Shown: positions 4,031-7,976 of the stretch, piece by piece
Position numbering within the stretch: the first letter of the stretch is position 1
Layout: the number at the start of each line of letters is the position of its first letter
Assembly (NCBI GenBank): GCA_934101745.1
Contig: CAKOSD010000023.1
Coordinates: forward strand, 1 to 10,577
Length of the DNA stretch: 10,577 bases
Source of the DNA: an uncultured Bacilli bacterium
Lineage (GTDB): Bacteria; Bacillota_I; Bacilli_A; RF39; UBA660
Direction: 5' to 3'
Notes under the pieces: model-generated
Told to the model about the DNA's origin: nothing
The model's database searches: none
Seen by the model: only the letters and a program-made list of their open reading frames with translations
Made by a program: the position numbers and the translations under genes

Positions 4031-5356
4031 TTAGTCATCTAAATCTAATTCATATGGACTATCCATACTACCTTCACCTTTAATAGTTAAATGACCATCA
4101 ATATTTATAATAGGAATCATACTGCAAGTATTATTAGCCTTAGTATAAGATAACTTTCCCTCTTTATTTAATACTGTTATATAAGCCCCATAATAATAAC
4201 TATAAGGCGTTGAGGTACAAATATTTTTATTTAAGAATAAATAATTATCTTGATTATTAAACTTTGCACTAAATCCAATTATACTTACTTCATCAGCACT
4301 TAATATTCCTATTTTACTACTATATTTACCCCCGTAGTCTCTATCACCAGCACTACATCCTAAACTAGGACTATCTTCATCAAATAACCTTTTATTACCA
4401 CTATAAGTTATTTGATTATAATACTTAGTATAGGTTGTATCAACACAGTAATCCTTAGTAACTAAGTATTCCTCATATTTACTTATATTTTCTTCATACC
4501 AAGTATTAAGAGCCTCAGAAGCACTACTAGTATTAAAAACTACATTTTCTTCTTTATTAGAATATTCATTAAACTGATTATCTATATTATTATTTACAAA
4601 GGCTAACTTAATAGACTTATCACTATTAATACCTACTATTCTTAAGATATAATCATCTAATTTAAAATAATTATTTGTTGGATTACCCCTAAAATAATAA
4701 TTATTATCTATTTTAACTAAACCATTCTCTATAATATCACTACTATAATCAATATTACTTATAATATTAGGATTATCATTTAATATTTTTTCAACAAAAG
4801 TAGGCTTTATTATTTGGTTACTAGCCACTACTTCATAAGTACTATAAAAAGTATTTTTATCTTTGCTAGTAGCAGCATATTCATCTAACCACATTCTAAG
4901 ATTAAGTCTAATACTCTTATTAGGTTCTAAATCATATTTATATAATCTTTTCTTTTCTTTAATATTAGAATCACTATTCTTTAAAGTCTTTAAATCACTT
5001 AAAAGAGTTGGTTCTAAAGTTATATCTCCATTTATATAAGTTTTAACTTTATTACTATTAATAGTCGAAGTATTTAATACATTTAAATATACTTGAATAG
5101 TCTTTATATTACTACACTTATTAGTTATAGATATACTTCTTGCTGAAGAACCTTTACCATCTATATCTTTTTCGGCCTCCGGATTAACTAAGTTATATGT
5201 TAATTCATCACTATATATTATATCAACACAAGAAGTATTATTATCTATCTTACTATTATTGTCTATCTTCCATATATAATAAAATATTAATATACTTATA
5301 AGTATCCCTAGTATTATAGTTAAAATTGTCAACCTCTTTTTATAAAATTCTTGCAT
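4031..5356 (-). CDS. Membrane-anchored protein with TasA-like and lectin-like regions; paralogue of the 574-aa protein
   Basis: A 441-aa protein with a basic N-terminus and one transmembrane helix (about 9-29), the rest outside the cell. Residues 45-180 look like a beta-rich TasA/camelysin-type domain (SISITNKCSN, IQVYLNV). From about 219 it parallels the 574-aa neighbour: YYFRGNPTNNYFK here matches YYYRGNVTNNYVK there, GILSADEV (350-357) matches GLLSTDEI, and both end in a short G-x-G...PY-x-(I/L) tail. This C-terminal part is the same C-type-lectin-like fold, but the WWASSP and GVRP signatures are lost and the codons stay AT-rich, so it is not an obvious diversification target. Several cysteines (C42, C81, C304, C334, C380, C411) could form disulfides. 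The ATG has a GAGGA ribosome-binding site 6 nt upstream and a strong promoter. Function unknown; a surface adhesin or matrix component is an inference. Confidence 0.75.
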   Translation of the reverse strand: MQEFYKKRLTILTIILGILISILIFYYIWKIDNNSKIDNNTSCVDIIYSDELTYNLVNPEAEKDIDGKGSSARSISITNKCSNIKTIQVYLNVLNTSTINSNKVKTYINGDITLEPTLLSDLKTLKNSDSNIKEKKRLYKYDLEPNKSIRLNLRMWLDEYAATSKDKNTFYSTYEVVASNQIIKPTFVEKILNDNPNIISNIDYSSDIIENGLVKIDNNYYFRGNPTNNYFKLDDYILRIVGINSDKSIKLAFVNNNIDNQFNEYSNKEENVVFNTSSASEALNTWYEENISKYEEYLVTKDYCVDTTYTKYYNQITYSGNKRLFDEDSPSLGCSAGDRDYGGKYSSKIGILSADEVSIIGFSAKFNNQDNYLFLNKNICTSTPYSYYYGAYITVLNKEGKLSYTKANNTCSMIPIINIDGHLTIKGEGSMDSPYELDLDD

Positions 5357-5865: not shown

Positions 5866-7590
5866 TCAGCTAGTCAGAGAAATGCGATAAGGGTCAGATG
5901 CTGTCCCAGAGCCTTGTGCCAGCACTTCAGCCTTCAGACTGAAAACTGGTCGAACCCCGACGGTGCCGTTGTTCACGCGGTAGTTGTAGCCGTTCGCATA
6001 GCCACCCGAATCAACGAAAAGCACGACAGCGTTACTACCATCGAAGAAGTAGTCCGGCGAGGAAGCCCACCAACTCTGCCCTGAGTATAAGTAATAACCA
6101 CTATTGCTAGCCTCCCATCCACCGGCTAGTACAATTTCATCTGTACTTAAAAGACCGACTGGATACGTTAGAGCTCCATTACCATTAGTAGTATCACTTA
6201 CCGTAAAGGCATCATTCTTTTGGGGACACATTAACATCATTTTATTATTATAAGAACTATCCGCAAAGTTGAACCAACGATATGCTGTGCCATTTGTTCC
6301 ATATCCCAAGTTATTATAACTAATACCATTAATATTTGGTTTGTTACTACTTATTGAACGGTCATTACAGAATACATTATCAGCTAAATATTGTTCATTA
6401 GTTGTACCAACTATATTTGTTTTATACCAATCATCTATATAAGTTTTAATATCAGAATTATTAGTATTAGCATGAGCATCAGCATAAGTCGAGGCACCCG
6501 TTTGACCATACATATAACCGACATAAGCATTATCATCCCAACTACTATTAAAAGCACTAGTTCCTATCTGTCTATCTGCACTTGCCTCACCATTAGCGTG
6601 AGCACTTGTGCCATCATAAATAATACGAACAGTACCATCACCATTAATACGAACAATTCGCCAATACATATCATTACCCGCACTATTAATTATTGTACAA
6701 TTTTTATTATAGAATGAAGCATTTTGACAAGCCTCCATAGAATCATATACCCTAAAAATATTTGTTTCACCAAAATAACCATATACTACATCATGAGCCC
6801 ATTTTCCAAATTTAACATAATTATTAGTTACATTACCACGATAATAATATGAATCACCATAAGCATCTTTAGCCTTACATAAATAACCATTAGTAGCCTC
6901 TTTTCCAGTAACATTTACTGAACCATCAGCATTCATAAGTGGGCACTTACCAGAAGTGTCTAGCTGAGCAATTATCTTATCAATGATTGGCACTCCACCT
7001 AAATCCAAATTAATTGTATACTCTTGACCTTGTTGATTACTTTGGTCACCTTGGTTAGCATATTCTACTACTAAATAATATTTAGTTTCTGTCTTCGGAT
7101 AAACAATTATATTTTTATGATCTTCATCTGCTCCTCCAGATAACTCTAAAGTTGCACTACTAGGAATATTACATGATGAATCTTCATAATACTGACCATT
7201 TACATGTTGTTGTGTAGATGTACAAGTAACTTCTTCAGTTGATTTATATAACTTCCAGGTTACATCATTACTAAATACTCCTAAATTAGGCATTACTTTA
7301 ATTGAGGCTTCTGTTGGTTGAGCGTTTGTATCGCCTTCACCTCTTATGGTAAATGCTTTTACTTCTTTATGGCCAGGCAATACGCCATCAAAAGCTACAG
7401 TTTTACTCTTAATATCCATTACAACATTAGTAGTGCTTGCTGATATTACATTATTATTCCCATTTTCGGGATTTTTTACCTGAAAATTTGCCACATAATA
7501 AGCATAAGAGATACTTACCCCAATTAACCCCACTAAACATACTGCTGTTAATGCCAATAGCAGTTGTTTCTTATTAATCTTTTCTTTCAT
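5866..7590 (-). CDS. Secreted TasA-like protein with C-type-lectin-like C-terminus, putative DGR target
   Basis: A 574-aa exported protein. A basic N-terminus and hydrophobic core (9-28) end in S-Y-A at 30, a likely signal peptide or anchor. Residues 31-200 form a TasA/camelysin-like beta domain (SYAYYVANF, KAFTIRGEGD). A middle region has YYYRGNVTNNYVK (248-260) and MYWRIVRINGDGTVRIIYDG (308-327). The end carries GLLSTDEI (479-486), WWASSP (507-512), GVRPVF (545-550) and SDPYRISL (565-572), the layout of lectin-fold proteins targeted by diversity-generating retroelements, similar to DUF6273-type domains. The last 70 codons are GC-rich, unlike the rest. AGAGG lies 6 nt before the ATG. It has its own transcription unit between terminators at 8024-8047 and 5436-5466. 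Surface display and ligand binding are inferred; no reverse transcriptase is in the window. Confidence 0.8.
   Translation of the reverse strand: MKEKINKKQLLLALTAVCLVGLIGVSISYAYYVANFQVKNPENGNNNVISASTTNVVMDIKSKTVAFDGVLPGHKEVKAFTIRGEGDTNAQPTEASIKVMPNLGVFSNDVTWKLYKSTEEVTCTSTQQHVNGQYYEDSSCNIPSSATLELSGGADEDHKNIIVYPKTETKYYLVVEYANQGDQSNQQGQEYTINLDLGGVPIIDKIIAQLDTSGKCPLMNADGSVNVTGKEATNGYLCKAKDAYGDSYYYRGNVTNNYVKFGKWAHDVVYGYFGETNIFRVYDSMEACQNASFYNKNCTIINSAGNDMYWRIVRINGDGTVRIIYDGTSAHANGEASADRQIGTSAFNSSWDDNAYVGYMYGQTGASTYADAHANTNNSDIKTYIDDWYKTNIVGTTNEQYLADNVFCNDRSISSNKPNINGISYNNLGYGTNGTAYRWFNFADSSYNNKMMLMCPQKNDAFTVSDTTNGNGALTYPVGLLSTDEIVLAGGWEASNSGYYLYSGQSWWASSPDYFFDGSNAVVLFVDSGGYANGYNYRVNNGTVGVRPVFSLKAEVLAQGSGTASDPYRISLTS
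5869..6081 (-). other. GC-rich gene end resembling a DGR variable region
   Basis: By hand count about 55% of these bases are G or C, against about 25-37% in the blocks 6181-6360 of the same gene. The change happens at residue G504, just before WWASSP. In codons 513-541 (5968-6054) 16 end in C, 9 in T, 4 in G and none in A. The 29 codons at residues 430-458 include 7 ending in A and only 4 ending in C. Five codons are AAC. NNC/NNT codons are what adenine mutagenesis of AAC/AAT template codons produces. The stretch after GVRP (5869-5955) would be the invariant recognition part. The template and reverse transcriptase are not seen, so horizontal transfer from a GC-richer source is the alternative. 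Confidence 0.5.
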
Positions 7591-7685: not shown

Positions 7686-7712
7686 TTTCATAGAGTTAAA
7701 TATTCTATGAAA
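7686..7712. repeat. Inverted repeat TTTCATAGA/TCTATGAAA, copy 1
   Basis: Two perfect 9-bp arms with a 9-nt loop. The same arms recur at 7950-7976. In the leftward leader of the 574-aa gene this would form a hairpin about 100 nt before the start codon. No T-run follows on the minus strand. Confidence 0.7.
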
Positions 7713-7949: not shown

Positions 7950-7976
7950 TTTCATAGAGTATTTAACTCTATGAAA
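7950..7976. repeat. Inverted repeat TTTCATAGAGT/ACTCTATGAAA, copy 2
   Basis: Perfect 11-bp arms with a 5-nt loop ATTTA; the outer 9 bp are the same as in copy 1 (7686-7712). It sits 8 bp after the 13-bp direct repeat and is not followed by a T-run long enough to be a good terminator. Confidence 0.7.

Follow-up and report, generated by a model that had tools for sequence, protein, structure and literature searches.

The window analyzed here is a 10.6-kb contig from an AT-rich, uncultured, RF39-like Bacilli bacterium (CAKOSD010000023.1, 10,577 nucleotides, taken at its full length). It carries a gene whose 3' end we read as the variable region (VR) of a target of a diversity-generating retroelement (DGR). 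On one side the gene is flanked by EzrA (PF06160, 2.6e-98 in a Pfam search) and on the other by genes for a DHH-type phosphoesterase and an acetate kinase, both assigned by eye; the window also holds one tRNA. The features of the target gene are listed in Table 1.

Table 1. The predicted DGR target gene, its parts, and the adjoining paralog (window coordinates)
Feature	Position	Strand	Description or basis
Predicted DGR target gene	5866..7590	-	574 aa; hydrophobic N terminus and C-terminal DUF6273-like domain
Domain bearing the VR, residues 238-574	5869..6879	-	Modelled, mean predicted local distance difference test (pLDDT) 91.4
Putative N-terminal hydrophobic signal/anchor, residues 1-34	7489..7590	-	Assigned by eye from the sequence
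Predicted VR, SP...GVRP	5947..6060	-	Codon pattern and alignment with VRs of genome G223
Predicted VR mutable codons, 32 codons (513-544)	5959-6054	-	Codon pattern
GVRP end of the VR	5947-5958	-	Matches the final bases common to template and VR in relatives
GC-rich, nearly constant 3' tail (VFSLKAEVLAQGSGTASDPYRISLTS)	5869..5946	-	Codon counts and homologs
Diverged paralog adjoining the target gene	4031..5356	-	24% identity over 102 aa

An earlier note on this DNA had singled out codons 513 to 541 (5968-6054) for their endings, and a recount within the open reading frame (ORF) returned its figures: 25 of the 29 codons end in C or T, four in G, and none in A, and five are AAC, as claimed. Taken alone, the C/T count is weak evidence, since the best 29-codon stretch of five other ORFs in the window reaches 23/29. 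By itself, 25/29 is nearly ordinary for this contig; the strong parts of the signature are the excess of C and the missing A. C occupies 16 of the 29 third positions, compared with 7 in the best stretch of those five ORFs, and A occupies none, compared with a minimum of 3. Over all 32 mutable codons, the third positions are 19 C, 9 T, 4 G, and 0 A, against 267 T, 149 A, 61 G, and 35 C in the first 512 codons of the gene; with the latter as background, the probability of at least 19 C is 1e-14 and that of no A is 1.7e-5. At the 3' end of the gene, GC content climbs to about 0.55, up from about 0.3. The adjoining paralog, an in-window control, has no block of C-ending codons (at most 3 C of 29).

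The same signature is seen when the segment is aligned with five VRs of a related genome, G223. Here, we count 22 window codons that align with variable or inserted positions, every one of them ending in C or T; the four G-ending codons (GTG, TCG, GCG, and GTG) are framework codons. The associated P value of 9e-6 is post hoc because the counting followed our own reading of the alignment, which shifts one GTG by one column and takes in a column where four of the five G223 VRs have TCG. The GC-rich block also runs beyond the VR up to the stop codon, a point absent from the earlier note. This tail is nearly invariant and yet has foreign-looking codons, and it is retained in homologs whose N termini differ. 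Because its protein sequence is conserved, the tail is presumably free of adenine mutation.

Protein homologs bear out the division into fixed and variable positions. Among 7999 proteins scored, 7120 matched at an E value of ≤0.001, and homologs are 66 to 81% identical across the searched region. WWASSP...GVRPV is present in 87 of 120 retrieved proteins (the window protein being one of the 120), and 29 residues separate the two motifs in 70 homologs. In these 70, counted with near-duplicates included, ten nearly invariant framework columns (entropy of ≤0.42 bits) interleave with nineteen hypervariable ones (2.1 to 3.4 bits), and the homologs vary at the columns predicted to be variable. Within the VRs of those 87 proteins, 0.7% of residues fall outside NNC/NNT coding, versus 10.8% of the 100 residues upstream. 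Among the homologs displayed, N termini are diverse and the VR-bearing region is alike. At the DNA level, a VR search of 193 genomes matched G195, G003, and G090, and one of 291 genomes matched G090 only. The window protein was not found in viral_contigs by six exact peptide patterns, VR-end, template-like, and element patterns gave 0 matches each in that set, and tblastn with the window domain matched no phage record.

The window protein matched no Pfam family; its close homologs P0005, P0022, and P0046 pass the cut-off of PF19789 (DUF6273), and P0008 falls slightly under it. A first structure model, built on 56 close homologs, was discarded (pLDDT of 46); the model in Table 1 was built from 90 more diverse sequences. 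Neither the window domain nor alignment A4 found a match among solved structures by sequence, and BFVD returned three viral models at an E value of 0.001 or better, one of them named DUF6273. The earlier note had counted the fold, position, and codon endings as all fitting a DGR. Endings and position do fit, and the fold is consistent with a DGR, but the lectin matches are weak; the VR-bearing domain is probably C-type-lectin-like.

Since the template repeat (TR) and reverse transcriptase (RT) of the window's own organism were not found, proof is drawn from relatives. These are genome bins, in which putative DGR RTs were recognized by motif, neighbors, and best solved-structure match. Among 385 genomes belonging to one order, G336 and G223 come nearest when the target domain is compared (51 to 60% identity to homolog P0022); by EzrA, other genomes are nearer (best, 55%). 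In G336, a VR, a TR, avd, and an RT gene lie inside 2.2 kb (locus L264), and in this cis target 20 of 30 template adenines but 0 of 75 other bases are changed. Three further G336 targets on other contigs differ from the template at 15/30, 20/30, and 18/30 adenines and at 0/75, 3/75, and 5/75 other bases, respectively. A single locus of G004 holds a target, a TR, a MutS-I ORF, avd, and an RT gene, with changes from TR to VR at A 16/38, C 0/31, G 1/23, and T 1/20. In G002, the TR follows an RT gene bearing an internal stop, the VR is in the next gene, and the adenine pattern is not clean (A 11/30, others 14/76). The cis DGRs of G336 and G004 are adenine-only and nearly adenine-only, respectively. 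A second VR family of G223 has the codon framework TCG NNY GGY NNT GCG NNC... GTG in common with the window; its template was not found.

The RT genes of these relatives have recurrent neighbors. RVT_1 searches matched in 26 of 28 genomes (there was no match in G220 and G242, both of which have template elements) and recovered RTs of about 370 to 380 aa behind an Avd-like ORF, plus other RTs. Hidden Markov models placed an Avd-like ORF before the RT in all three loci tested (L264, L032, and L034), with scores under or near curated cut-offs, and a MutS-domain-I ORF in both avd-RT cassettes tested (L032 and L034). The latter ORFs encode small MutS domain I proteins (PF01624) at 4493-5026 of L032 and 6159-6581 of L034. 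The RT motif is GNMTSQ in L011 and L013, which we take to be typical of DGR RTs, and GSLSNQ in L012; the best solved-structure match of the G336 RT is 8ub7_A, and NCBIfam offered no DGR RT model. Both G223 and G336 have a second avd-RT pair with repeat arrays directly 5' of it (L269 60-1910 and L268 3538-4979, respectively). The G223 repeats are read as a cis template array, and those of L269 as TRs ending in GVRA, not GVRP.

Taken together, the codon pattern, its position at the 3' end of the gene, and the adenine-mutated TR copies beside an RT and Avd-like gene in relatives support the DGR reading proposed in the earlier note. We assign a probability of about 0.92 to 5947-6060 being the VR of a DGR target gene. 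What the window displays directly is the codon signature; its species presumably has an RT and a matching template of its own and a system that is still active, and the target protein is likely to be displayed on the cell surface, where it would bind some ligand. In known DGRs, Avd-RT makes adenine errors as it copies the TR RNA, and synthesis is primed in structured RNA 3' of the TR (PMC12875486). By analogy, a template RNA encoded elsewhere in the genome, with the same framework and AAC/AAT codons, would be copied by the DGR RT and Avd with its adenines misread, and the cDNA would substitute for segment 5947-6060. Misreading followed by replacement would turn the variable residues into random NNC/NNT codons and keep the framework codons. 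The product would be a membrane-anchored protein with a randomized, probably C-type-lectin-like, binding face.

Relatives suggest that such a system can be far larger than one template and one target. Searches with one VR each found 27 places for G195; for G003 they found 33 and 37. Like all template and VR numbers here, these are floors or candidates. Among 74 places fetched (27 from G195 and 47 from G003, L032 being extra for G003), 70 are ORF ends and 4 are non-coding; L101, L106, L144, and L155 are non-coding, asparagine-rich templates. Leaving out L089, L100, L114, and L150, we compared 23 VR-like ends of G195 and 44 of G003 with 2 and 12 TRs, respectively, defining a close match as at most 4 non-A mismatches and at most 6 gap columns. 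In G195, 11 of the 23 VRs match one TR closely, with changes at 186/352 adenines and 28/759 other bases; 8 of the 44 VRs of G003 match a TR closely (A 111/240, others 14/563). The bias toward adenine holds across all 23 ends of G195 (A 390/732, others 230/1582) and all 44 of G003 (A 644/1308, others 516/3086). VR-like ends without a close TR could belong to templates other than those tried, or could be inactive. The templates found in G195 and G003 sit on contigs other than that of the RT. Bins can mix strains, but one 101-kb contig (G003:C1) alone has six VR places and six template elements.

Could the window gene be a former target, whose end was once diversified and whose RT or matching template has since been lost? 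The ends just described that lack a TR within our limits (12/23 in G195 and 36/44 in G003) are in keeping with such a history, leftover targets are reported in Treponema denticola (PMC4891356), and the VR in the window is unusual in length and departs from the framework at one position (R to L). Nevertheless, its reading frame is intact, A is found at 0 of 32 third positions, and the codons counted as variable end in C or T. We regard loss of the system as possible but rather doubtful.

The template elements of the relatives are stand-alone units of about 200 nt, in which a TR lies within a 9-bp clamp and a conserved hairpin comes 3' of it. In an alignment of six elements, 211 columns long, column identity averages 80%. 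Comparing the stretch upstream of the TR (searched in 100 nt) with the nine bases that follow the 3' hairpin, we found perfect 9-of-9 clamp pairing, G-T pairs allowed, in 55 of 59 elements examined; the fraction of shuffles equalling this pairing was 0 to 0.06 for the 55. Double changes that preserve pairing (GGTTAGTTT/AGACTAATC, GGTTTATCT/AGATAAATC, and GGTTAATTT/AAATTAACC) occur in the clamp, though not all are independent, as the elements are related to one another. Similar clamps, chosen by eye, pair at 11/11 positions in G004 and 10/11 in G336. The clamp and 3' hairpin may be the part recognized by RT-Avd, and together they provide a searchable RNA signature for DGR templates far from an RT. 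At its gathering threshold, Rfam matched neither L264 nor any of the four template loci tested.

A covariance model of the 3' flank (R1), which G195 and G003 match by construction, matched 31 of the 385 genomes at an E value of ≤0.001, with at least two matches in 21 of these, and found nothing in the window up to an E value of 1. At most 12 candidates per genome were scored, so that counts of 12 are lower bounds. Template elements number from 2 to at least 17 per genome in these 21, with at least 13 in G003 and at least 17 in G251. Within one genome, templates vary in length and fixed positions. Contig G251:C20 (L186, 677-4017) has 12 tandem elements in 3.3 kb, and five others lie elsewhere in G251; a spacing of about 300 nt recurs in G226:C12 and G007:C25. 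The units of the L186 array have few adenines (0 to 6 AAY codons of 32), with VR-like residues in some units, and are either decayed templates or low-diversity donors.

Tandem arrays of non-coding copies, together with dozens of similar gene ends in the relatives, would also suit antigenic variation in which silent cassettes act as donors for ordinary gene conversion and reverse transcription plays no part. Low-AAY, partly VR-like units such as those of L186 could serve as the cassettes. Simple conversion, however, should copy rather than randomize, and in G336 the differences between donor and recipient are confined to donor adenines (20/30 versus 0/75 and 15/30 versus 0/75), while the donor adjoins an RT and an Avd-like gene; the adenine pattern of G004 likewise speaks against conversion. 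This alternative is highly improbable. A chance or horizontally acquired GC-rich segment without a role in diversification would suit a block that extends past the VR to the stop codon, but it can hardly account for the hypervariable and framework columns of the homologs or for GC contents of 0.38 to 0.58 over the last 90 nt of the 59 TR elements, which themselves lie in AT-rich surroundings.

Given a DGR origin, the relatives' system looks many-to-many, with multiple templates and dozens of VR-like gene ends, and the window's species may likewise have many templates and many targets. We lean toward a genome-wide DGR, in this order of small-genome Bacilli, in which one or a few RTs serve up to a dozen or more template RNA genes and dozens of DUF6273-like targets, the window gene among them. 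These RTs, which in G195 and G003 are not linked to the templates, would act on templates that each carry their own framework (length and fixed positions) inside the covarying clamp, and a single RT may serve many of them. The template arrays, with units about 300 nt apart, would then be a repertoire supplying different binding surfaces.

Phage-type DGR targets have a hairpin 4 to 34 bp from the VR (PMC3240598); unlike these, the window VR has no perfect hairpin of at least 8 bp (loop, 3 to 6) within 300 nt after it. In relatives, the same scan, which covered perfect stems in stretches several of which are shortened by contig ends, found one after 18 of 75 VRs (2/9 in G336 and G223, 10/23 in G195, and 6/43 in G003). 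In L264 (G336, about 510-537) and L279 (G223), a 12- to 13-bp hairpin with a 4-nt loop follows the VR at a distance of about 106 nt, and a 12-bp hairpin was seen by eye after the G004 VR. These hairpins could be terminators or homing hairpins. Separately, just upstream of the target gene, 27-nt inverted repeats at 7686-7712 and 7950-7976 are 96% complementary and 237 nt apart, each arm being palindromic; they are a possible regulatory or invertible element.

Being DUF6273-like and probably C-type-lectin-like, the window domain can be compared with those of gut-phage tentaclins and Faecalibacterium prophages, in which the VR is on a DUF6273 domain and the fold is C-type-lectin-like (PMC10743442, PMC11792537). 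The targets there number one or two and belong to phages or prophages, whereas the window gene lies near EzrA and its domain matched no phage record. As in Bordetella phage BPP-1, the relatives combine adenine-specific transfer from TR to VR with Avd and an RT, and structured RNA lies 3' of the TR, where in BPP-1 it recruits the RT-Avd complex (PMC12875486).

Several TRs and several VRs in one DGR are already known, which counts against novelty. In a survey of 948 DGRs, 677 had a single VR and 271 had several; about one-fifth of the latter had more than one TR, so most have a single TR (PMC6642488). Stenotrophomonas has 2 TRs and 6 VRs, and Pseudomonas costantinii, a case called atypical, with few A-to-N changes, has 6 TRs and 91 TR-VR pairs, with 21 merged VRs within one gene (PMC6642488). 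Here, in contrast, VRs end many separate genes and changes are adenine biased, and templates, compared with the multi-TR DGRs of that survey, are stand-alone, enclosed by clamps, and often tandem.

If true, a genome of 1.1 to 1.3 Mb with dozens of VR-like ends would make rapid change of binding proteins central to its lifestyle, and the arrays would permit direct tests of template and target choice by one RT. The genomes of Trichodesmium and Thiohalocapsa are larger. Trichodesmium has 18 loci with TR/VR homology (PMC8867640) and Thiohalocapsa 9 DGR loci and 15 targets (PMC10907252); both resemble the present system in having many targets, some acted on in trans, and the excerpts of these two papers that we consulted describe no tandem stand-alone template arrays in either. 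Literature searches, with subscription journals and preprints outside their scope, paired DGRs with RF39, Tenericutes, and Erysipelotrich/Mollicutes, where no such system was among the matches listed, and with tandem arrays, where none was met. Tandem arrays of stand-alone, clamp-enclosed templates combined with dozens of separate targets were not met in the literature so covered. A close counterpart is the cellular DGR of T. denticola, in which one RT and one TR diversify several lectin-fold genes genome-wide (the FGE/C-type lectin TvpA family), so that targets are likewise remote (PMC4891356). T. denticola has up to 7 targets per isolate, against 23 to 44 VR-like ends in two of the relatives, and it has one TR, whereas 21 of the genomes searched here each have from 2 to at least 17 template elements.
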